Assembly (NCBI RefSeq): GCF_003350405.1
Contig: NZ_QQAW01000001.1
Coordinates: 1 to 64,000 of the forward strand
Reading direction: 5' to 3'
DNA length: 64,000 nt
Source: Gluconacetobacter liquefaciens
GTDB lineage: Bacteria > Pseudomonadota > Alphaproteobacteria > Acetobacterales > Acetobacteraceae
The translations under genes and the position numbers were made by a program. The notes under the pieces were generated by a model, which was not told the origin of the DNA, searched no databases, and saw nothing but the letters and a program-made list of their open reading frames with translations. Position 1 is the stretch's first letter, and each line of letters starts with the position of its first letter. This document shows positions 53,476-64,000 of this stretch, in pieces.

Positions 53476-53969
53476 TAGAGCAATGACACCTCTGCACCAC
53501 AGCCCTGTTCTACCACCGTTTTCCAACACACGCCGAGGGCGATACCTGTCAGATATCTGTTTCAAAAAATCCCTGAATATTTTGGAATGTTTCGCCCTTG
53601 CATGATCACATGCATTCATCCGGCGACTTACCTAGTCAGCCCGCAGAGCAGCGCAGTAGCATCGCATCCAAGTGCGTAATCCACGCAGAAACGGACACCG
53701 TACCGCATCATTCACGAAATCAGCGACAACGTCGAAAATGGCGGGCTGACATATCAGAAGGCAGCGCCGACAAGGGCTTCCCTATGTACCAGTCTCTGGG
53801 CCTCCAACAGAACATACCCAGGATCAAACTCAGCGGAAGCGACACCACCCAGGCTCCAAAGCCGGGATACGCGCGTCGGCCGTTTCCGGACACGAACCTG
53901 TCCTGAGACCGGCGAAATCCGCTAGTTTTGCCCCTTAACAGGAAGCAATACATCTAATTTTAAGGAGAA
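53476..53969. other. Intergenic stretch next to the island
   Basis: About 490 bases between the lipoprotein start and the tRNA remnant. A plus-strand frame at 53598-53906 is open but has no ribosome site and reads as low-likelihood protein. I see no other feature. Confidence 0.35.
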
Positions 53970-54016
53970 TGGCGCACCCGAAAGGACTCGAACCTCTAAC
54001 CCCCAGATTCGTAGTC
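53970..54016 (-). tRNA. 3' half of a tRNA-Arg gene (attachment site remnant)
   Basis: Read on the minus strand, the sequence runs from the anticodon loop (CTACGAA, anticodon ACG) through the anticodon-stem 3' strand TCTGG, a T-arm with GGTTCGAGTCC, acceptor 3' strand CGGGTGC, a discriminator G and encoded CCA. The 5' half is absent: the bases before CTACGAA do not form CCAGA. This is the pattern left where an element integrated in the 3' end of a tRNA gene. The intact tRNA would be expected at the far, right end of the island. Confidence 0.75.
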
Positions 54017-54233
54017 ACAAGGGCAGAATTGGCAGTAAGATGCAAAGAGCCGCAAAGACACGAAATAACAACAGGTTAAACAGTGGGTTGGATGAAGAGT
54101 TCACGCAACGAGACGCAGCGAATCGCAGGGATTACGATTTCAGATGAGTCCGGAAAGAGTCCGGAGAATCGACCCGATAGCCCGCCAGACAGGGTGACGG
54201 AGGGCTGGCGCATTCATTGGGAAACACTTTTGT
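54017..54233. other. Island left-end DNA without a gene
   Basis: No open frame of note. Short direct repeats occur: GAGTCCGGA twice near 54146-54164. Together with the repeat array that follows, these 340 bases before int probably serve integration and control of int. Confidence 0.4.
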
Positions 54234-54344
54234 AGGTGTAAAGGTGTAAGAGGTGTAACACACATATATTATACACTGTTTTTATTGACTTTTTCTCTCC
54301 CCAGCCGGTTACACCTTTCGGTTTTCAAGGTGTAACAGGTGTAA
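54234..54344. repeat. AGGTGTAA repeat array upstream of int
   Basis: Six copies of AGGTGTAA: direct at 54234, 54242 and 54251, inverted at 54309, and direct at 54328 and 54337 (start positions). Copies are spaced 8 or 9 bp apart within the groups, with an AT-rich stretch between. Likely binding sites for Int arms, an excisionase or a replication initiator. Confidence 0.7.
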
Positions 54345-54357
54345 TCGAGACCGCCGG

Positions 54358-55638
54358 ATGAAGCTGACAAAACGGGAAATAGACGCCCTGGCCTGCCCGC
54401 CGGGTAAGCGCGACGCCATGTTCATGGACGATTCGCTGCCGGGTTTCGCGATCCGCGTGACCGAGGCCGGGTCCAAGGTCTTCCTGTTCCAGTATCGCTT
54501 CGCCGGCCGCATCCGGCGCCTGGTCATCGGCCCTTATGGCGAGGTCACGCCCGCCCAGGCGCGGAAGGAAGCCGAGGAAGCGCGCGGCCGGGTGCGGGCC
54601 GGTGGCGATCCAGCCGGGGAAAGAAAGACCCTCGCCCTGGCCGCTCAGGCCGAGATGGCCCGCCAGAAGGCGGAAGAAGCTGCCGATGCCCTGACGCTGG
54701 ATGCGCTGATAGACCGCTGGCGTGACGGGGCACTGAGGGACCGGAGCGCGTCCTATCGTAAAGAAGCCCCGGATCGGCTCCGCACCGGCTTCCCTGCCCT
54801 TCTGGGCCAGCCCGCACGGTCAATCACACCGGGCGAGGTCCAAGCCCGTCTGGACGAGGTAGCGGCACAGCACCCGGTCACGGCCCGCCGGATTCATGCC
54901 TATGGCCGGGCCATGTTCGGCTGGGCCGAGAAACGGCAGTTCGTGCCCGCCAACGTGTTCGCCAGCGTGATCGTGGAAGGCCGGGAGACCTCGCGCGACC
55001 GCGTGCTGACAGATACCGAGTTGGCCGAGCTGTGGAACGCCGCCGGCCGCCAGCCATTCCCCTTTGGCCCGTTCTTCCGGCTACTGGCCCTGACGCTGCA
55101 ACGGCGGGACGAAGTGGCTCACATGAAATGGGCCGAGTTGGCCCCGGACCTGACCGCCTGGCTGATCCCGGCCGACCGGACAAAGAACGGCCGCGCGCAT
55201 ATCGTCCATCTGGCCGAACCTGCCCGCCAGATCCTTGCCGGCCTGCCACGTCAAGCCGACCCGAAGACTGGCGCACTGTCGCCCTACGTCTTCACCAGCA
55301 ACGGGCGCACCCCGATTTCCGGCTTTTCCGACGCCAAGGAGCGGCTTGAAGCCCTGATAGCTGACATGCGGGCCGAACAGACAGGAAAGAAGGCCAGAAA
55401 GCCAGCGGCCCCACCGCCCAGGGCAGACTGGCGGCTGCACGATCTGCGGCGAACGGGCGTAACGATCATGGCGCGACTGGGGATCGGCCCGCATGTTGCG
55501 GACCGGGTTCTGAACCATGTGCAGGGCACGATCCAGGGGGTGGCTGCGGTCTACCAGCGCCATGAGTTTGAAGCCGAACGGGCGGCGGCACTCGATACTT
55601 GGGCTCGGCATGTCCAGGCCGTGGCCGAAACGGCGTAA
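54358..55638 (+). CDS. int: Tyrosine-type site-specific integrase
   Basis: 426 residues. N-terminal DUF4102-like arm-binding domain (MKLTKREIDALACPPGKRDAMFMDDSLPGFAIRV), a central core-binding domain (about 115-205), then the catalytic domain. The catalytic set is present: Arg in LQRRDEV (249/250), H361 and R364 in LHDLRRTG, H387 in VLNHVQG and Y399 in VYQRHEF. P4-family integrases with this N-terminus use tRNA 3' ends, matching the tRNA-Arg remnant 340 bp upstream. Confidence 0.93.
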   Translation: MKLTKREIDALACPPGKRDAMFMDDSLPGFAIRVTEAGSKVFLFQYRFAGRIRRLVIGPYGEVTPAQARKEAEEARGRVRAGGDPAGERKTLALAAQAEMARQKAEEAADALTLDALIDRWRDGALRDRSASYRKEAPDRLRTGFPALLGQPARSITPGEVQARLDEVAAQHPVTARRIHAYGRAMFGWAEKRQFVPANVFASVIVEGRETSRDRVLTDTELAELWNAAGRQPFPFGPFFRLLALTLQRRDEVAHMKWAELAPDLTAWLIPADRTKNGRAHIVHLAEPARQILAGLPRQADPKTGALSPYVFTSNGRTPISGFSDAKERLEALIADMRAEQTGKKARKPAAPPPRADWRLHDLRRTGVTIMARLGIGPHVADRVLNHVQGTIQGVAAVYQRHEFEAERAAALDTWARHVQAVAETA

Positions 55639-55714
55639 AGCGGTACCGATAACGTGCACATATAAATAAAATCTATACTACAAACAAAAATAATATACCG
55701 AAATAAATATTTAA

Positions 55715-55754
55715 ATTACGGAATATTATTATAATATAAAGAATATTCCGTAAT
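55715..55754. terminator. AT-rich inverted repeat between converging int and cargo gene
   Basis: Perfect 13-base arms ATTACGGAATATT and its complement flank 14 AT bases. It lies between two gene ends (55638 and 55776) and could end both transcripts, or be a protein-binding dyad. Confidence 0.5.
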
Positions 55755-55775
55755 ATTTATATTATGAAAATATTT

Positions 55776-57140
55776 TTATTTATTGTGTAATTTTTCCCCA
55801 AAAACTTCTTCAAACTTAGTTATAAACTCTTCGTTTTTTCTTAATGACTTAAATACTGGCCATTCTTTAAAACAAGACAAATCAAAATCATCACATGACT
55901 CTACGGCTATTTTCATTTTTTTTATAACATAGCCCACATCATCTTTAATAGATGCGACGCATATTTTATAGTTTTCTGTCGAAGTTTCCCAGTCTATTTT
56001 ATTTATTATTTCAACAGCTTCTTCTTTTTTTCCGCCGAGCTTCAATGCGTTTGCATAATTTATTGTGATACGTTTTTTTGTGGAGTCTGGTATTGTTGGG
56101 TTGCTCTCTATTTTTTTATTTATATATCTATATATCGCAGAAGAAGTTTTAATATTCCCTTCTAACATCAGCTCATACGCACTTTCATCAATAGTTGAAA
56201 ATAATTCTGGTATTTTTGTTTTATTTATCTTCGAATAAACATTAAAAAAAATGGAAATAAAAATCGAAATAACTACATTTACTGAATTATTATAATAAAA
56301 TCTATCTATTTTTGCAAAATCCCCAATACTAAATTCTGTTTTTATAGAATTCTCCTTACACACACCAACATACTGGCTCGAAACGATAGAATTTGTGTGA
56401 GTATATAAATTTCTTCTTTCACAAATTTCTATAAAATCCTTCAATCCATCAATTTCATCTTCCATTTTGAAATGCATTTTGTCGGATATCCAGCGTATCT
56501 GATCTTTATGACTTCCTCTCATTAGCTTATCGATCTGCCTATCGATTAGATAAACTTTAACATCATCTATACTAGAAAACCTAAAAATTTCTTCGGCAGT
56601 TATATTTTTTTCTGACTTATCTATTATTTTCGGATAGATATTTAATATTATTCTTATTAAATCTGATAGATATGCATCATAAGAACTAATGAGGCCAGAA
56701 AGAAACATTCCAGGAAAATGCGACGCCTTTTCTTTATCTTCTAATGATTTTCTCAAATTACGCGATATTGTCATCAAACTATCTTCATTTACTGAATAAA
56801 TCACCTCTTTATCATTATCTTTACTTATCCAAACCTGCTCCCCATGCTCCTCTACATAACGTCGTATTTTTTTATCGTCCCGAGCCCGCCTAAACGACTC
56901 GAGCAAAAAGATAACCTGCCTGGATGTATCCAAGTGTATTTGAGAAGATTTCATATAATTTAAATATAAATCAAGAAATTCATCGTTGTTTTTTTCCAAG
57001 ATAACTTTTTGCTCTCCACCAACTTCCTCTCTATCTATATCACTTAAAATATTTTCAATACTTTGAGATGTTATGCATTTTATTATTTTATTATTTTCAT
57101 TTTCTCCGGAAGTTTCTATAAAAACATAATATTTTTCCAT
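55776..57140 (-). CDS. HEPN-like putative RNase, island cargo
   Basis: 454 residues from ATG 57140, preceded by GGAGAG six bases upstream. The gene is extremely AT-rich next to its GC-rich neighbours. Residues about 150-170 (SSYDAYLSDLIRIIL) and 233-258 (DFIEICERRNLYTHTNSIVSSQYV) look like the two core helices of a HEPN domain, with the catalytic R-x4-H as R243-N-L-Y-T-H248. The C-terminal 100 residues are helical and TPR-like (INYANALKLGGKKEEAVEII). HEPN proteins act as RNases in toxin and anti-phage systems. The role in defence is inference from the motif, the cargo position and base composition. Confidence 0.6.
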   Translation of the reverse strand: MEKYYVFIETSGENENNKIIKCITSQSIENILSDIDREEVGGEQKVILEKNNDEFLDLYLNYMKSSQIHLDTSRQVIFLLESFRRARDDKKIRRYVEEHGEQVWISKDNDKEVIYSVNEDSLMTISRNLRKSLEDKEKASHFPGMFLSGLISSYDAYLSDLIRIILNIYPKIIDKSEKNITAEEIFRFSSIDDVKVYLIDRQIDKLMRGSHKDQIRWISDKMHFKMEDEIDGLKDFIEICERRNLYTHTNSIVSSQYVGVCKENSIKTEFSIGDFAKIDRFYYNNSVNVVISIFISIFFNVYSKINKTKIPELFSTIDESAYELMLEGNIKTSSAIYRYINKKIESNPTIPDSTKKRITINYANALKLGGKKEEAVEIINKIDWETSTENYKICVASIKDDVGYVIKKMKIAVESCDDFDLSCFKEWPVFKSLRKNEEFITKFEEVFGEKLHNK

Positions 57141-57190
57141 TGAGATCTCTCCAAAATAGCAAATTTATCGTGGCGTTTATTCTTTATCAC

Positions 57191-57206
57191 CGATAAAATA
57201 TTATCG
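57191..57206. promoter_or_regulatory. Dyad upstream of the HEPN-like gene
   Basis: CGATAA-AATA-TTATCG is a perfect 6-4-6 dyad in the 71-bp gap between the XRE gene and the HEPN-like gene, about 50 bp before the latter's start. A likely operator for the XRE regulator. Confidence 0.5.
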
Positions 57207-57211
57207 CTTTG

Positions 57212-57448
57212 TCATTTTTTTAGTCGCACACCGACTCCGCCTCCATTTTCTGGTATAAACACCACACCTACAGATTCGAATGCAGAACGAATCGCACAGA
57301 GCGTCGAAAGCCTCGGGGCTGTTTCGCCACGCTCTAAGCGAGCCAAAGTTCTGACAGTTGTACCTGCAGCATCAGCAAGTTGCTCACGGGTCCAATCCAC
57401 CAGTCCACGTGCAGCTCTCAGCTGTGCGGGCGTAATGTCTTTTTTCAT
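57212..57448 (-). CDS. XRE-family helix-turn-helix regulator
   Basis: 78 residues from ATG 57448. Cro/C1-type HTH: LRAARGLVDWTREQLADAAGTTVRTLARLERGETAPRLSTLCAIRSAFESVGVVFI, then a short Gly-rich tail. It is GC-rich, unlike the HEPN-like gene it precedes by 71 nt on the same strand. It may repress that gene or the element's plus-strand operon, which starts 120 bp away in the other direction. Confidence 0.85.
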   Translation of the reverse strand: MKKDITPAQLRAARGLVDWTREQLADAAGTTVRTLARLERGETAPRLSTLCAIRSAFESVGVVFIPENGGGVGVRLKK

Positions 57449-57506
57449 GACATTTCCACTTGAAAGTGTCTTGAAACATGACATACGACTCAAGGGCTAT
57501 CAAGAT

Positions 57507-57541
57507 GGTCCGGACTGAAGCTGGAACCTTCAGTCCGGACC
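57507..57541. promoter_or_regulatory. Perfect 14-bp inverted repeat before the small-gene operon
   Basis: Arms GGTCCGGACTGAAG (57507-57520) and CTTCAGTCCGGACC (57528-57541) flank CTGGAAC. It sits 28 bp before ATG 57570 in what is probably the leader of the plus-strand operon. There is no T-run, so an operator or leader RNA structure is more likely than a terminator. Confidence 0.6.
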
Positions 57542-57569
57542 TAACCACAACCGAAGGATACTTTCGGCA

Positions 57570-57740
57570 ATGGCTGAACACGCCCATAGCACACCCGCAC
57601 CAACGCGGGCAGCGGAGTCACGCGCCCACATTCTGGCGGCGCTGATCGCCCCTTTCCTGATCGCCCTGGCCGTCTTCGGTCTCGGCACGCCCGATCCCGT
57701 CACGACAGGCCGCCCCACCGCCATCGAGGTCGTGCGATGA
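57570..57740 (+). CDS. Small membrane protein (56 residues)
   Basis: From ATG 57570, with GAAGGA about 12 bases upstream. One hydrophobic segment HILAALIAPFLIALAVFGLG (about residues 20-39) makes it a single-pass membrane protein. The stop codon overlaps the next ATG (ATGA at 57737-57740). No family recognised; it opens a run of five overlapping genes. Confidence 0.6.
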   Translation: MAEHAHSTPAPTRAAESRAHILAALIAPFLIALAVFGLGTPDPVTTGRPTAIEVVR

Positions 57741-57961
57741 GCCAGGCGCATATGGACAGCATCGCGGCTGCTGGCTTCAAGGTGCAGAATCTCGCAACCC
57801 TTCTGGCCTGGGCCGGAAACGCCGCTGGCCAGGTGTGCTTCGAAGCGACCGGGGAGCGCCTGTCCGCCCTCGGGTTCGCTATCCAGTGGGCAGGGGAAGA
57901 ACTGTCTCGACTATCGGAGGAAATCACCACCGGCATCGAGATGGTGGAGAGGCAGCGATGA
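57737..57961 (+). CDS. Small helical protein of unknown function
   Basis: 74 residues, overlapping its neighbours on both sides by ATGA. Mostly amphipathic helix (VQNLATLLAWAGNAAGQ, then GFAIQWAGEELSRLSEEI). It resembles the next small protein in length and pattern, so the two may be distant paralogues. Function unknown. Confidence 0.6.
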   Translation: MSQAHMDSIAAAGFKVQNLATLLAWAGNAAGQVCFEATGERLSALGFAIQWAGEELSRLSEEITTGIEMVERQR

Positions 57962-58203
57962 GCTGCGCCAGAACGCCCGGCCATGATCGTATCATCGGCG
58001 CGACCAAAGACGCCTTACATGACGTAAGTCTGGCCCTGTCGGGCCTGACGCTCCTGCTCGGCCAGATGGTCGATTCCGAGGGCGACGTCAGCGGCGATAC
58101 AGTGATGGACTGGGCCCATGCGCTGCAATGGCTCCGGGATTCCATCAAAACGGCCATAGCCGACCCTCAAAAGGAAATCGCAACGCGGGAGACAGGCCAA
58201 TGA
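57958..58203 (+). CDS. Small helical protein of unknown function
   Basis: 81 residues from ATG 57958, starting in the ATGA shared with the previous gene. Helical, with LALSGLTLLLGQMVDSEGDV and WAHALQWLRDSIKTAI. No family recognised. It overlaps the next gene by four bases. Confidence 0.6.
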   Translation: MSCARTPGHDRIIGATKDALHDVSLALSGLTLLLGQMVDSEGDVSGDTVMDWAHALQWLRDSIKTAIADPQKEIATRETGQ

Positions 58204-58616
58204 GCGGTACCAGCCCCACCCTCTCCCGCCGCACGACCCTTGCCAGTTGCTTTGCCCTTGGCGCCACCGCCACCGCTTCCTGTGCCCCTCAGGCGGCAGA
58301 TGACACCACCCTGCTACGCCGGGCAGAAGCCGCCCTGTCCGCCCATGCTGCCTTCGTGGGGTTGGCTGACCGGTGGGGCGCGACAGTCCACGTGCCGGCC
58401 GGCATCCGGGCCGAACGGGGCCGTCTTTGGGACGTCGCGAACGATCTGCGGTTAGCGGCCATGGAATTGCCAGCACGCACAGTGGCGGGGCTGCGAGCCA
58501 AGGCACGGCTGGTCCTGACCACGCTGGACCTGCGCGCCGATGCCACGATCCGCCCGGATCAAGACGATTTCGCGGCCTGGTCACTGTGCCGCGATCTGAT
58601 CGGTGGTGCCGCATGA
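58200..58616 (+). CDS. Exported small protein with twin-arginine-like signal
   Basis: 138 residues from ATG 58200. The N-terminus TLSRRTTLASCFALGATATASC looks like a Tat signal (S-R-R-x-x-L) followed by a possible lipobox ATASC. The mature part is helical (LLRRAEAALSAHAAFVGLADRWGA, AAMELPARTVAGLRAKARLVLTTLD). No family recognised. It overlaps its neighbours by four bases at each end. Confidence 0.6.
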   Translation: MSGTSPTLSRRTTLASCFALGATATASCAPQAADDTTLLRRAEAALSAHAAFVGLADRWGATVHVPAGIRAERGRLWDVANDLRLAAMELPARTVAGLRAKARLVLTTLDLRADATIRPDQDDFAAWSLCRDLIGGAA

Positions 58617-59947
58617 TCGCCCTCAGCCATGTCCCCCCACTACAAGGCTTGCCTGTTCCCGTTTTGTGCCAGATGATGCAGGGAGGCGCGGCTAGGTTTG
58701 GCCGCCGAACGCCTGGTCCCCATGACTGGCCCGCCGCGCCGTCTGTTCTCAATCATGGGGATGACCGGCGTGGGGCGGTTGTGACTGGCAAAACCATACT
58801 CCCGTTCGTGGCCGACAGGCTGCGGTACGGCATCCAGCTTTCCTCGGCGGTCGACGTTTTCGACGGTATCAAACCGCATTTGTCTGAGTTGGAAGATGCC
58901 TTTGCTCAAGACAATTACGCGTGCTGGATGGCGAATGTTCCGGGTTCTTGGGCCGAGAACCCGGAACGTTGGTGGCCGAAAGTCCGCAATCACAAAAATA
59001 ACGGCTATGGCATTGCGCCTCAGCAAGAGCGGCAAATGGACGCTTTCCTTGCTTACGGACAGAGCTTGGCAAGCCTCCAACGCGCGATCAGTAAGCTATT
59101 GGCGATAGGCGAATTGACGGCTTGCGGACGCAAGAAAACACCCGATGGGGCATGGACTCGAATGGACCCTTACTATTTTGGGTCTGCGGGAAATGTCACG
59201 TTCTCATCTTCGTCAGTCGTTGTCGAAAAACTGCGCTTTTTCGATGTCAGAATCGGCTATGAAACCGGCGTCTCGCTCGCGTCAGCTATGATCGCTTACG
59301 GGGCACCAGAACTTGTTTCCCATTACCTGCTATTACGTCGCACGCCACCGGACAGCCCGGAACGCAGGGAACATGCCGACTATTTCGAGGAACTGAGAGA
59401 ATGCTTGCAAAGCGACTTGTTGGCTTTGCTAAAGGATAACCATCTCCAAGCGGTAAGAGATGAAGACCACAAACCGGTCAACCCCCGCGATTTGTCCGAA
59501 GCATCCATGGACTTCGCCTCGTCCTCAATCATATATCCCGACCAGCCGACACAACGGGTTCTTGTTCCAATACGGATCGGTGTTGCCCGACACGCCGACC
59601 TATTCGAATGGCGACCGGCTTCTTCCTCTGCCACTGGTCTACCTATCGCTCGTGTCGGCTCTGAATCTCTCTCGAAATCAAGCCAACCCAAGCGCGGCCG
59701 AAGCGAACGCGGCATCAAGGCTGAATCGCTGGCCCGCGAATTCTGGCTGGACGAAGGAGAGGTATTCACAAGCGGAGACGGACAGGTCGCCCGCTGCATC
59801 CGCCATGTGCAGGATGGCCTCGTCAATTGTGGTCTGGCCGAGATGAGCAAATCCTCACTCTCCGAGATTGCCAAGCGCACTGCACGCAGCTTGCAGTCCG
59901 AAAAAGCCTGTCAACGTACGGAGACCGGAAAGGTCAAAAAGACCTAA
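58613..59947 (+). CDS. Unknown island protein (444 residues)
   Basis: From ATG 58613 in the ATGA shared with the previous gene; an in-frame GTG at about 58782 (VTGKTILPF) is an alternative. I do not recognise the family. Visible features: a stretch DNYACWMANVPGSWAENPERWWPKVRNHKNNGYGI rich in Trp, an aliphatic VSLASAMIAYGAPELVSHYLLLRRTPP, and a basic Ser-rich tail. No transmembrane segment or clear catalytic motif. It is less GC-rich in its second half. It closes the five-gene overlapping run. Confidence 0.6.
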   Translation: MIALSHVPPLQGLPVPVLCQMMQGGAARFGRRTPGPHDWPAAPSVLNHGDDRRGAVVTGKTILPFVADRLRYGIQLSSAVDVFDGIKPHLSELEDAFAQDNYACWMANVPGSWAENPERWWPKVRNHKNNGYGIAPQQERQMDAFLAYGQSLASLQRAISKLLAIGELTACGRKKTPDGAWTRMDPYYFGSAGNVTFSSSSVVVEKLRFFDVRIGYETGVSLASAMIAYGAPELVSHYLLLRRTPPDSPERREHADYFEELRECLQSDLLALLKDNHLQAVRDEDHKPVNPRDLSEASMDFASSSIIYPDQPTQRVLVPIRIGVARHADLFEWRPASSSATGLPIARVGSESLSKSSQPKRGRSERGIKAESLAREFWLDEGEVFTSGDGQVARCIRHVQDGLVNCGLAEMSKSSLSEIAKRTARSLQSEKACQRTETGKVKKT

Positions 59948-60056
59948 TTCGGATATCCCGGACGACACGGGCAGCCATTCTTCCAATCATTCCCCAGTCA
60001 CGCACCAAACCGCACCACTCTGCGAACAGGTGCTCTTGTGAACAGGGAGCCATACG

Positions 60057-60335
60057 ATGCACCGCGTGAAAACACGCAACAGACCGACTCTGCCCACCGC
60101 CCCAGCGGTGCCCACGCCTCCGCTGGTGGTTTCTGAACCCGAAGCCGCCCGCCTGGTCGGGCTGGGTATCCGCACGATGCAACAGCTCCGCGCCGATGGC
60201 GCAGGCCCGCCGTTCGTGAAACTGACCAGCCGCCGCATCGGTTACAGCATGACCGGCCTTCAGGACTGGATTGCGTCGCGCTCTGCCCGCTCCACCTCCG
60301 ACGCCACCGTGCGCCTGATCGGCGGTGCGGCATGA
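60057..60335 (+). CDS. AlpA/excisionase-like helix-turn-helix protein
   Basis: 92 residues from ATG 60057. A MerR-like HTH of the AlpA kind: VVSEPEAARLVGLGIRTMQQLRADGAGPPFVKLTSRRIGYSMTGLQDWIASR. AlpA-type proteins of P4-like elements activate int or act as excisionase. It overlaps the next gene by four bases (ATGA). Confidence 0.8.
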   Translation: MHRVKTRNRPTLPTAPAVPTPPLVVSEPEAARLVGLGIRTMQQLRADGAGPPFVKLTSRRIGYSMTGLQDWIASRSARSTSDATVRLIGGAA

Positions 60336-61075
60336 ACGCGCTGGTCCAGCAATACGCCTTTCAGGGTCATCCGGTTGGCACTGTCACGATTGACGGCTTG
60401 CCGTTCTTCATCGGCAAGGACGTGTGCGAGCGGCTAGGCTATGCCAATGCGGCTGATGCCATGGCCAAACATTGTAAGGGGGTCGCGAAACGCTACCCCC
60501 TTCAAACACCGGGCGGTATGCAGGAAGTCCGAGTTCTATCCGAACCCGATGTCATGCGCCTGATTGTCCGAAGCAAGCGCCCTGAGGCAGAGCCGTTCGA
60601 ACGATGGGTCTTCGAAGAGGTTCTGCCCTCGATCCGCCGAACCGGTGGCTATGTCATGTCCGCCGCCGGCGACAGTCAGGCCGATCTTGTCGCCCGCGCC
60701 TTGTCAGCCGCTGAGGAAGCCATCCGGCGACAGGGGGCGGCGATCGATACACTGGCGCCCAAGGCGGCGGCCTATGACCGTCTGGCACAGTCCACGGATC
60801 AGGTCAGCCTGACCGAAGGGGCAAAAGCCCTTGGGCGCCCTCGTGCCCGGTTCCTTTCGATGCTTCACGCGCATCGGTGGATTTATCGCCAGAAACCTAA
60901 CGGACCGTGGCTGGCCCATGCCGACAAGGAACGATCGGGCTTTCTCGCCTACCGTATCACCGACATTCCCGATCGTGACGGCCACCTTGTTCCACGCCAT
61001 CAGGTCTTATTGACCGCCAAGGGCCTGACGCACCTGGGGCAGCTTCTACCGAAGTGGGAGGTCGCCTCATGCTGA
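60332..61075 (+). CDS. Bro-N phage antirepressor with KilAC-like C-terminus
   Basis: 247 residues. Bro-N domain (about 1-110): VGTVTIDGLPFFIGKDVCERLGYANAADAMAKHCKG ... RLIVRSKRPEAEPFERWVFEEVLPSIRRTGGY. The C-terminal part (about 130-245) with VSLTEGAKALGRPRARFLSMLHAHRWIYR and VLLTAKGLTHLGQLL is the ANT/KilAC antirepressor fold. Such proteins switch prophage or satellite gene expression. It overlaps the next gene. Confidence 0.9.
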   Translation: MNALVQQYAFQGHPVGTVTIDGLPFFIGKDVCERLGYANAADAMAKHCKGVAKRYPLQTPGGMQEVRVLSEPDVMRLIVRSKRPEAEPFERWVFEEVLPSIRRTGGYVMSAAGDSQADLVARALSAAEEAIRRQGAAIDTLAPKAAAYDRLAQSTDQVSLTEGAKALGRPRARFLSMLHAHRWIYRQKPNGPWLAHADKERSGFLAYRITDIPDRDGHLVPRHQVLLTAKGLTHLGQLLPKWEVASC

Positions 61076-61638
61076 CCACCGCACAGATGGCCACGATAGA
61101 CGCACGGCACGAAGACACCCTTCTGCATTGGCTCTGGTCCGACTGGACCGCCACCGGCCCGTGCCTGTTGTGCAGGGTGCTGACCCTGTTTCAAGGGGCG
61201 GATACCTACCTCCGCAACACCCCCTGGCGTCCGGACATGGCCACAATCCTGCGCCAGCATGGTCGGGCCGATTTCAACCCTGTTCCCTCGCAGGAAGCCA
61301 TCCTTGGCCTTCTGTCCGCCTGGCCGCATGCCGGCAAGGTTCTCACGGCGGACCGGACATTTGATGATCTGACAGCGAGCGAACCACCAGCGGACGCGAC
61401 AGACCGTTTCCGGTCGATGCGCTCGGCCCTGATTCAGTTCCGTACCGCTCTGGATCATGATCTGCGAACGCTTGAGCTGCGAAACTGGCTCAAGGTCATC
61501 GGGTGGGGCACGGTGCTGCAACAGGCCGAAGAACGCGACCAAGCCGCACATGCCTTGATCGAAGGAAGGGCGTTCCTGCCGGCAGAAGGGGGCATTGCCG
61601 AGGTTCCGCCTGATAGGCCGGACTATGCAAAGACCTGA
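61069..61638 (+). CDS. Unknown island protein before the primase
   Basis: 189 residues from ATG 61069, overlapping the antirepressor stop by seven bases, and its own end overlaps the primase start by 14 bases. There is a CLLCR cysteine pair near residue 34, but no family I recognise. Mostly helical. Its position suggests a replication or regulatory accessory. Confidence 0.6.
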   Translation: MLTTAQMATIDARHEDTLLHWLWSDWTATGPCLLCRVLTLFQGADTYLRNTPWRPDMATILRQHGRADFNPVPSQEAILGLLSAWPHAGKVLTADRTFDDLTASEPPADATDRFRSMRSALIQFRTALDHDLRTLELRNWLKVIGWGTVLQQAEERDQAAHALIEGRAFLPAEGGIAEVPPDRPDYAKT

Positions 61639-62689
61639 CGCGGCAACGCTCGCGCAGCTCCTGGCCGAGCGGGTCCACCCTCTCGTGCTGGAGCTGTTGC
61701 CGCATGGCCACCGCGAGGGTGCGGAATGGCGGTGCGGTAGTTGCGCGGGCGAGAAAGGCCAAAGCCTCGCCGTGCGTCTGACCGGGCCACGGCGGGGCGT
61801 ATGGTGCGATTTCTCCAGCGGCGAACGCGGGGATGCGCTTGATCTGGTGGCGGCGATCCTGTTCGGCGGCAATCGGCGGGACGCCATGGCTTGGGCTCGC
61901 ACCTGGCTGGGGCTGGATGACAGTCCAGTTCCGGCGATTGCCCGGCGGGCGGTGGCGACCAAAGCCACCACCGCCGAGCAAGACCAGGACGAACAGCGCC
62001 GGCGGGCCAAGGCTCGCCAGCTTTGGCATAGTGCCCCCACCGGGATCGCCGGCACACCGGTCGAAGCCTATCTGCGCGGTCGGGGCATCGACCTGCGCGA
62101 GATGGGTCGCCAGCCGGGCAGTCTGCGTTTTCATCATGCTGTCTGGTGCGGCGAGGTCAGCCGCCCGCTGCCGGCGATGCTGGCCGCGATCTGCGCGGCG
62201 AATGGCAAGATGGTTGCGGTGCATCGCACCTGGCTGGCCTCGGCCCCTGACGGTGGATGGACAAAGGCCGATCTGCGGGCACCCAAAAAGGTGCTGGGCA
62301 GCTTCGCGGGTGGCTGTATCCGCCTATGGCGCGGGGCATCAGGCAAGAGCCTGAGCATGGCGGAGCCGGGCGAAAGCGTCGTCCTCGCGGAAGGGATCGA
62401 AACCGGTCTGTCCGTCGCCCTCGCCTGCCCGGAGCGCCGTGTGCTGTGCGGGGTCAGTCTCTCGAATCTCGGCCGGCTGATCCTGCCCGACACCATCACC
62501 GAAATCACCATCGCGGCCGACAATGACACCGGGAACGATACCGCCCGGAAGGCACTGGACGCCGCATGTCGTCAGTTCATTGAGCAAGGCCGCGTCGTGC
62601 GCGTTGCCATGCCAGAAACAGAAGGCGGGGACTGGAATGATGTCGCCCGGCAAGACAATGACCGAGAAGAAAGCAACACGCGGGCGTAA
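61625..62689 (+). CDS. Toprim-domain primase
   Basis: 354 residues from ATG 61625. The N-terminal part has a degenerate zinc-binding WRCGSCAG and VWCDFSSGERGDALDLVAAI, as in phage CHC2-type primases. The Toprim domain has VVLAEGIETGLSVALA (catalytic Glu) and ITIAADNDTGND (the aspartate motif). With the following ATPase it would start element DNA replication. Its end overlaps the start of that gene by 53 bases. Confidence 0.85.
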   Translation: MQRPDAATLAQLLAERVHPLVLELLPHGHREGAEWRCGSCAGEKGQSLAVRLTGPRRGVWCDFSSGERGDALDLVAAILFGGNRRDAMAWARTWLGLDDSPVPAIARRAVATKATTAEQDQDEQRRRAKARQLWHSAPTGIAGTPVEAYLRGRGIDLREMGRQPGSLRFHHAVWCGEVSRPLPAMLAAICAANGKMVAVHRTWLASAPDGGWTKADLRAPKKVLGSFAGGCIRLWRGASGKSLSMAEPGESVVLAEGIETGLSVALACPERRVLCGVSLSNLGRLILPDTITEITIAADNDTGNDTARKALDAACRQFIEQGRVVRVAMPETEGGDWNDVARQDNDREESNTRA

Positions 62690-64000
62690 GCGCGTACGAG
62701 ATGGCATCGAGGGCGCACAGGTCGTCAGCTTTCCGACCAGCGCCGCGCAGACCGAGCAAGGCCGACCACCGCCGGGCGTGTCCAGACGCTTCAAACGGAC
62801 AGAGGATGGCTGGTTTCGTCGCGCACCCGACCCCGATACGCCGGATATGTTCGTCTGCGGCCCAGTCGATCTTCTGGCCGAAACCCGCGATGCCGAAGGC
62901 AATGGCTGGGGCCTGCTGCTGGGCTGGACAGATCGCGATGGCGTCCAGCATGAAAAAGCCTTTCCACGCAGTCTATTTTCCGGAGATTGCGGCGAGCTGC
63001 GAAGCCAATTGGCCAATGGTGGCTTGACACTGGCCAGCAGTCCCGCCGCGAAGTCCGCCTTTGCCGAGTTCCTTGCGACAGTCTCGACCGAAGAACGGGC
63101 GCGCAGCGTGGCGCGGGTTGGCTGGCACGCTTTCCACGACAGCATGAGCTACGTGCTGCCCAGCGCCGTTTTCGGAGCGACAGCCGAGCGGATCGTCTTA
63201 CAGACCGATGGTGCCGAGGATGATCTGTTCGGGATCGCCGGCACGGCCGAAGCCTGGCGGGATCGCATCGGGTCCGTGTGCCGGGGCAACAGCCGCCTTG
63301 TCCTGTCCGCCTCTGCTGCTTTCGCAACACCCCTGCTGACCTTGATGGGCGAGGATGGCGGCGGGTTCTCATTGATGGGGGCCTCACGCCTCGGCAAGTC
63401 CACGGCGCTGAGGGTCGCGGCCTCGATCTGCGGTGGTACCATGCAGGCAGGGGCCGAGGGCTATGTCCGGTCCTGGCGCAGCACGGGCAATGCTCTGGAA
63501 TCCGTTGCCCTGGCGTCGTGTGACAGCCTGCTGTGCCTGGATGAGTTGGGCCAACTTGATCCGCGCGAGGCTGGTGATACCGCCTATATGCTGGCCAACG
63601 GGGCCGGCAAGGCACGGGCCAGCCGAACCGGTGGAGCGCGGGCTGTGGCGCGGTGGCGGGTTCTGTTCCTGTCCACAGGCGAACGGACGCTGGCGGACAT
63701 GAATGCCGAAGCCGGCCGGGCGACCAAGGCGGGGCAGGAAGTCCGATTTGTCGATATGCCGGCGGACGCGGGCGCAGGGCTCGGCCTGTTCGAGAAGCTG
63801 CATCATGCCGATGCACCGGGCGACCTGGCCGAGTATCTGCGCGCGGAGACTGGGCAGCTATATGGTGCGCCCTTTCGTGTCTTCCTCGATCGACTGACCC
63901 AGCGGCTTGCCGACGACAGCGTGCCAGTGGTGCGCGAAGCACTACGGGCGCGTGTGACCGAGCTGACAGACCATTACCTGCGGAACTGGCCCCTGGCATC
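62637..64000 (+). CDS. DUF927-family helicase-like ATPase, cut by the window end
   Basis: The frame starts at ATG 62637 (ATG 62658 is also possible) and is open to the last base. Residues about 55-200 hold the DUF927 lead (GPVDLLAETRDAEGNGWGLLLGW), and a P-loop follows as GASRLGKSTALRVAASICGG with Walker B in SLLCLDELGQLDP. DUF927 proteins pair with Toprim primases in satellites and mobile islands and probably unwind the origin. The C-terminus is outside the window. Confidence 0.85.
   Translation, partial: MMSPGKTMTEKKATRGRKRVRDGIEGAQVVSFPTSAAQTEQGRPPPGVSRRFKRTEDGWFRRAPDPDTPDMFVCGPVDLLAETRDAEGNGWGLLLGWTDRDGVQHEKAFPRSLFSGDCGELRSQLANGGLTLASSPAAKSAFAEFLATVSTEERARSVARVGWHAFHDSMSYVLPSAVFGATAERIVLQTDGAEDDLFGIAGTAEAWRDRIGSVCRGNSRLVLSASAAFATPLLTLMGEDGGGFSLMGASRLGKSTALRVAASICGGTMQAGAEGYVRSWRSTGNALESVALASCDSLLCLDELGQLDPREAGDTAYMLANGAGKARASRTGGARAVARWRVLFLSTGERTLADMNAEAGRATKAGQEVRFVDMPADAGAGLGLFEKLHHADAPGDLAEYLRAETGQLYGAPFRVFLDRLTQRLADDSVPVVREALRARVTELTDHYLRNWPLA

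Follow-up and report, generated by a model that had tools for sequence, protein, structure and literature searches.

What is the role of an AT-rich gene that lies directly beside the integrase of a tRNA-targeted island in Gluconacetobacter liquefaciens? The gene is found in the first 64,000 nucleotides of contig NZ_QQAW01000001.1 (the window), at positions 55776-57140 of the minus strand. It is a complete ORF with an ATG start, and encodes a protein of 454 amino acids (P0001). An earlier note on this DNA had proposed, from the letters of the sequence, that it encodes an HEPN-like protein and is a candidate for phage defence. The length of the protein and its R243-N-L-Y-T-H248 sequence are both borne out by the ORF translation, and the DNA is indeed far more AT-rich than its surroundings. 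The GC content of the gene is 0.293 (GC3 0.246), compared with 0.624 for the window and 0.671 for the integrase gene, and just 11 of 597 sliding windows of 1,365 bases fall below 0.40 GC, all 11 overlapping the gene. The protein has no second match in its own 4.17-Mb genome.

The ORF coordinates agree with the description of the gene as flanked by int and an XRE regulator. The tyrosine integrase of the island (54358-55638, plus strand; identified in the ORF list and by profile matches to Arm-DNA-bind_3 and Phage_integrase) is convergent with the HEPN gene, and between the two lies an AT-rich inverted repeat (55706-55763) with 25-nt arms that are 84% complementary and separated by 8 nt. The RNA fold of this gap (55660-55775) has a z of -2.1, and the repeat is possibly a two-way terminator. 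Upstream of the HEPN gene, on the same minus strand, is a gene for an XRE-type HTH regulator of 78 amino acids (57212-57448, with its ATG at 57448; residues 2-78 were used in searches). The intervening gap of 71 bp (57141-57211) contains a Shine-Dalgarno-like GGAGAG (57147-57152) 6 nt before the ATG, in agreement with the ribosome site that had been reported. The dyad reported at 57191-57206 is also present, with 6-bp arms, but it is weak and near chance: when the bases of the gap were shuffled 2,000 times, 13.8% of the shuffled versions contained at least one such dyad, and the real gap has two. Sigma-70-like sites in 55600-57600 number 9 against 9.3 expected, none of the 9 lying wholly inside the gap between XRE and HEPN genes, and an Rfam search of 53500-64000 returned nothing at gathering scores.

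The earlier note had placed the gene in a tRNA-targeted island. No tRNA is found by ARAGORN within the window itself, but the designation is correct, because the 53-bp left attachment repeat (53964-54016), which represents the 3' end of tRNA-Arg(acg), has an identical copy at contig positions 66791-66843 that overlaps an intact tRNA-Arg(acg) gene just outside the window (contig 66797-66873, minus strand). The two repeats therefore define an element of about 12.9 kb. Its genes run in the order int, HEPN gene, XRE, small ORFs, a Bro-N/KilAC antirepressor (60332-61075, plus strand; profile matches), a phage-type primase (61595-62689, plus strand; profile match), a large ORF, conserved in sister islands, that extends past the window end, and, towards the right end, a BrnT-type toxin gene (contig 64976-65338, or L045:2976-3338, minus strand; PF04365, 2.4e-19). 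The toxin gene has a possible BrnA partner ORF, and the ORF that follows it outside the window is read as a resolvase.

Comparison with related islands reveals how the DNA around the gene varies. A close integrase (E <= 1e-100) occurs in 7 of 60 genomes, the organism's own included. The island of a congeneric genome (G010) has an integrase that is 97% identical, lies at the same tRNA and is bounded on either side by the same att core. Its DNA is 92.8% identical to the window up to position 55625 and the match resumes at 57523 (88.8%), leaving a block that contains the HEPN gene and the XRE gene (55626-57522) with no DNA match. The counterpart of this block (L065:2923-6192) consists of about 3.3 kb of other DNA that is toxin-antitoxin-like. 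It contains a PIN_10 gene and its HTH/DUF433 partner and, where the DNA is AT-rich, two small ORFs that include hydrophobic stretches; its XRE gene also differs, the product being 49% identical to that of the window. Within the slot between int and XRE, the exchange is complete. The window stretches 57746-57968, 58844-60056 and 60339-61617 (the antirepressor region), and the contig stretches 64578-64868 and 65119-65292, are likewise unmatched in G010. The HEPN block is therefore one of several, and the swap alone does not single it out.

In G005 this slot is filled by a PIN_3 gene and one for a possible HATPase protein (0.017), in G006 by a PemK-like gene, and in G007 by small ORFs only. These varied contents identify the slot as a cargo slot, and such islands evidently exist without the HEPN gene. 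An AT-rich ORF of 371 amino acids (L066:5435-6547, minus strand) with weak similarity to HATPase (0.017) is an unnamed cargo of this slot. Because the XRE gene was exchanged too, it may travel with the HEPN cargo; yet XRE relatives accompany unrelated cargo in four sister islands (G010, G005, G006 and G007), and the G008 and G029 stretches that were compared contain none. The slot of block 55626-57522 is thus a variable one within an integrative element. Its replacement in a sister island that shares the tRNA supports the designation of the gene as cargo, with the proviso that other blocks vary too.

The AlphaFold model of the protein (mean pLDDT 87 at full length) consists of three parts, all encoded on the minus strand. 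The N-terminal part, residues 1-139 (56724-57140), begins with 40 residues of low confidence, followed by long helices (42-99 and 119-139) that flank a beta hairpin (101-116). Residues 142-305 (56226-56717) form a helical bundle that is HEPN-like by the model and by profile comparisons, and that folds alike by itself (mean pLDDT 88.6 for this part alone). The remainder, residues 307-447 (55800-56222), is a TPR-like helical tail in which DW(S) and WP(L)F motifs are conserved. The TPR-like tail had been part of the original proposal, and it is supported by the helix pairs of the model; the accompanying matches are weak, with TPR profiles matching in a few relatives only and Foldseek returning mostly TPR proteins among the best 50 for the full-length model (top E 0.08). 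One relative (L034:530-2050, plus strand) carries a C-terminal extension, residues 413-493, that matches the end of the PADLOC candidate PDC-S34 (1.6e-14), possibly as a shared accessory domain.

The predicted active site, R243-N-x3-H248 (56397-56414, minus strand), lies in the helical bundle at the end of helix 233-249. Its conservation was assessed in an alignment of 34 rows (A3), drawn from 36 loci (33 from genomes and 3 from viral contigs) without L011, L039 and L041 (two of these being truncated ORFs and one not extracted). R243, N244 and H248 are identical in all 34 rows, as is the E238-x3-R242 motif just before them, and 10 of the 14 invariant positions fall within F236-H248, the most conserved stretch. 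The scans that supplied 33 of the rows were seeded partly with FIEI[CT]ERR, which includes E238 and R242/R243, and the conservation of the two arginines is therefore partly a matter of selection; N244 and H248 lie outside the seed. The motif is also kept in L115, a full-length alphaproteobacterial relative found by profile, in plasmid copies found by tblastn and in E. coli copies found by blastn. According to a passage of PMC3710099, the HEPN consensus includes E-x3-[KR] and a polar residue after R, and both E238-x3-R242 and the polar residue after R243 agree with it. The spacing of R243 and H248 also conforms to the R-x4-6-H pattern of the superfamily.

Based on these and the following data, the family very probably belongs to the HEPN superfamily. 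Two relatives match the Pfam HEPN_RiboL-PSP profile (PF18735) over a region that includes the motif: L115 (8.5e-5), a clear family member at 1e-48 against the window protein, and the Rhodococcus relative P0005 (9.1e-5). Their scores of 23 and 22.9 bits are below the curated cut-off of 28.4 bits, and PF18735 has no match in the window protein, nor, at E 0.1, in any of the 34 A3 rows. When the family was compared by hhalign with 13 PF18735 members, the score was 28.6 (P 0.00094, probability 22%), and the controls reached at most 21.3 (200 column shuffles), 14.3 (reversed alignment) and 11.2 (globins). The input for these comparisons was 13 of the 14 PF18735 matches, one short one being omitted, and 16 of the 24 globin matches. 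With single PF18735 sequences the scores were 27.3 (L078) and 28.1 (L079), the other 11 of the 13 giving at most 18.7.

Foldseek with the HEPN part against the PDB found no HEPN structure among the best 50 of 113 matches (top E 0.55); the globin domains, phycobiliproteins and other helical proteins that it did return, at E of 0.55 or above, were judged meaningless. A structure search of BFVD found one uncharacterised siphovirus protein (E 0.0012). The alignment used for the structure had 28 rows (A4, without L018, L019, L024, L030, L036 and L042), and a further one (A7, also without L029) had 27. The HEPN assignment that had been read from the sequence gains support from conservation, a confident helical model, the two relatives with sub-threshold Pfam matches and the profile-profile comparison, but the fold search brought up no HEPN structure among its best 50 of 113. 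The statement that the architecture matches no named system holds as well for the profile libraries searched. No model of Pfam, NCBIfam or PADLOC, the last a set of defence models, passes for the window protein, and these three libraries name none of 34 members; PHROGs, searched with the window protein only, gave nothing better than 0.02, and PDB sequence searches assigned it to no family.

How widespread is this family? A profile-seeded scan of 84,980 genomes yielded 33 loci, and an alignment-based scan of viral contigs yielded 3, where a scan with the single protein had found nothing. No match was found by tblastn in 50,697 phage records, either with the window protein or with another family member. 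By tblastn, relatives with 28-29% identity were detected on 3 cyanobacterial plasmids, and two Rhodococcus opacus PD630 records carry a weaker relative. Judged by record titles, plasmid records and tree labels, the family is spread over at least seven phyla (Pseudomonadota, Bacteroidota, Cyanobacteriota, Planctomycetota, Spirochaetota, Chloroflexota and Campylobacterota); including the weak match of Rhodococcus would add Actinomycetota and bring the number to eight. Its members are sparse: 2 of 100 genomes of relatives and 4 of 398 genomes of the same phylum contain a match, the organism's own included in each count, and two of the latter match only over the HEPN part at about 1e-11. A tree of 36 rows (without L022 and L029) groups the window protein with three alphaproteobacterial members with 98/99 support and a long-branch warning. 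In the metagenome-assembled copy L003/L009, N-terminal residues like those of the window protein are visible by eye in another frame just upstream, and this copy may be frameshifted or misassembled; L003, a contig stretch of G027, is identical to a piece of L009.

The low GC content is shared by the family. The gene is below its flanks in 36 of 38 loci, and by at least 5 points in 30 of them, compared with 15 of the 137 other ORFs of at least 300 amino acids in the same loci that are lower by this margin. The composition is thus a family trait and not evidence for a particular recent donor.

The neighbourhoods of the relatives bear on function. E. coli copies were found in 5 of 5,426 genomes, all of them between int and psu of P4-like satellites at tRNA-Sec. 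The search was by blastn with an Erwinia query, and more distant copies could be missed; the query counted 299 genomes, and among the 20 matches listed 5 are the gene at 60-80% identity and 15 are 50-base matches to the query end. The gene, which encodes WP_126316185.1, overlaps the integrase gene by 4 bp and is followed by psu. The psu-int locus is described in PMC9122126 as a reservoir of antiviral systems with HEPN proteins among its uncharacterised cargo, and phage resistance is reported there from 7 of 19 cloned sets (P4's own and 18 others) of this hotspot. The presence of relatives in the P4 anti-phage hotspot is the most telling hint at function and supports the gene as a defence candidate, as had been suggested. 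The order of int followed by the gene recurs in Erwinia (L024) and in viral contig L043, or 2 of 38 loci, when these are searched with an integrase profile built from four sequences, those of L024 and L043 among them.

Other relatives have different neighbours. The Nostoc copies belong to a gene row that also includes a TaqI-like specificity-domain gene, which type IIG models match, and a helicase-related gene; the Crinalium copy adjoins type I restriction genes. Families listed among 78 ORFs of 21 loci include REase_I, AbiQ, AbiD, AriA/AriAB, mREase_IV, capP, mad3 and PDC-S35. These scans covered 142 of 153 listed ORFs in two sets, with the L004 reverse transcriptase added and the 25 commonest families listed for all loci together. 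The restriction and abortive-infection genes among these neighbours point to defence in a manner that is suggestive only, and L115 lies beside an ORF read as UvrA-like, which is not an obvious defence locus. No constant partner gene recurs in most of the 38 loci; even the most widespread neighbour groups, among them the Nostocales helicase, reach no more than 4. This search used ORFs of at least 70 amino acids and blastp at 1e-5, a setting at which small or fast-changing antitoxins could be missed.

Several known systems resemble the window protein in part. The RiboL-PSP-HEPN proteins (PF18735) likewise consist of an HEPN bundle with an R-x4-H motif, to which the window protein adds N-terminal helices and the TPR-like tail; no L-PSP domain was found in it. 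Tha, from a Staphylococcus prophage, is also a single protein of a mobile element with an R-N-x3-H HEPN motif, described in PMC11087260 as R265NSIMH270, where H270A abolishes defence and the protein acts as a non-specific RNase of the abortive type. As described there, Tha differs in being 301 amino acids long with its HEPN domain at the C-terminus and no tail after it. The LA2681 family (PF18733) is listed in a table of PMC3710099 as HEPN joined to TPRs, but the window protein has no match to it at E up to 1, and in the example L113 the match is in the C-terminal part of the ORF, unlike the window protein, whose tail follows the HEPN part. LA2681 matches occur in 1 of 150 genomes, too small a number for a profile comparison.

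The RTasHEPN component of DRT systems (PADLOC PDLC03820) matches 15 of 34 family members weakly (best 4e-4), the match lying over the motif region in those that were scanned singly, and the G027 relative (L004) has a reverse transcriptase gene adjoining its end. In contrast, the window protein has no match, and no reverse transcriptase was recognised among the island ORFs scanned; RTasHEPN has 1 weak and uninformative match in 398 genomes. The reverse-transcriptase ORF (L004:661-1308, plus strand; PADLOC RT 2.3e-23, RT_UG26 5.6e-21) is convergent to a C-terminal fragment of the G027 relative, in a genome with a listed contamination of 7%. The family member WP_126316185.1 shares its location with the int-psu cargo of P4 satellites described in PMC9122126 (5 of the 5 E. 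coli copies found are in that slot), and the window gene is similarly placed next to the int of a tRNA-integrated element. The island is nonetheless not P4, its integrase being 26% identical and its backbone different. In the passages of literature considered on HEPN proteins in anti-phage defence and in P4-like satellites, the architecture is nowhere named; the four HEPN systems of PMC13092281 are outside this comparison.

Taken together, the gene probably encodes an HEPN RNase that constitutes an abortive system by itself, with the TPR tail as its sensor, and that is carried next to int in a tRNA-integrated island as exchangeable phage-defence cargo. In the proposed mechanism, the protein would be dimeric and idle at rest. 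The TPR tail, with the N-terminal helices, would sense or dock a product of an incoming phage, and docking would open a composite site formed from the R243-N-x3-H248 motifs of two subunits. This site would then cut cellular RNA, perhaps tRNA, and the resulting stop in translation would abort the infection before phage release. By analogy with Tha and with the HEPN protein of type IX retrons, for which tRNA cleavage is reported, it is likely that the protein first binds a trigger, which opens a site shared by two subunits, and that RNA is then cleaved and the cell arrested. A bolder version, offered tentatively, is that the family constitutes an unnamed and scattered one-protein immune system, in which the C-terminal TPR tail recognises a phage product and unlocks the HEPN RNase, and that P4-like satellites and the tRNA-Arg island independently loaded it beside their integrases.

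The arrangement of the block could also be read as an addiction or stabilisation module, in which an HEPN toxin is checked or repressed by the neighbouring XRE protein and keeps the island in the cell. The XRE gene is upstream on the same strand, across the 71-bp gap and within the exchanged block; the slots of sister islands hold genes of the PIN and PemK toxin families, and a BrnT toxin gene lies towards the right end. Even so, this reading is unlikely. The XRE relatives in four sister islands stand beside unrelated cargo, and the XRE protein is therefore not specific to the HEPN gene. Moreover, among ORFs of at least 70 amino acids no partner gene recurs in most of the 38 loci, and the direct neighbours of the E. 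coli gene are int and psu, with no XRE gene beside it.

Two further readings dispense with the nuclease. The protein might bind RNA or act as a scaffold without RNase activity, any defence arising through assembly of a complex. TPR-like tails are typically binding modules, and AbiA has an HEPN domain that retains the motif and is reported in PMC11077055 to have no RNase activity on the RNAs tried. We consider the scaffold reading improbable, because the invariance of R, N and H across all 34 rows is more in keeping with catalysis than with a role in folding only, and no other catalytic domain that a scaffold might serve was recognised in the protein. It is still less probable, at most an outside chance, that the protein is not HEPN at all and is instead a helical repeat protein with a coincidental R-x4-H and some regulatory or housekeeping role for the island. 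The fold searches are what would favour it: the full-length model resembles mostly TPR proteins, weakly, and the HEPN part retrieves no HEPN structure among its best 50 of 113. Against this stand the two relatives that match an HEPN profile over the motif region, the controls of the profile-profile comparison, and the location of the motif in the stretch with 10 of the 14 invariant columns, part of which the seed covers.

HEPN RNases are already a known weapon of defence, and the architecture described here, present in at least seven phyla, is unnamed in the profile libraries searched. Its E. coli and plasmid copies are annotated 'hypothetical protein', and one member already lies within a published E. 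coli anti-phage hotspot. If the reading of the HEPN-TPR gene as defence cargo is true, HEPN immunity would gain a type of sensor, the TPR tail, and the integrase-adjacent slots of unrelated satellites would draw on the same pool of genes.
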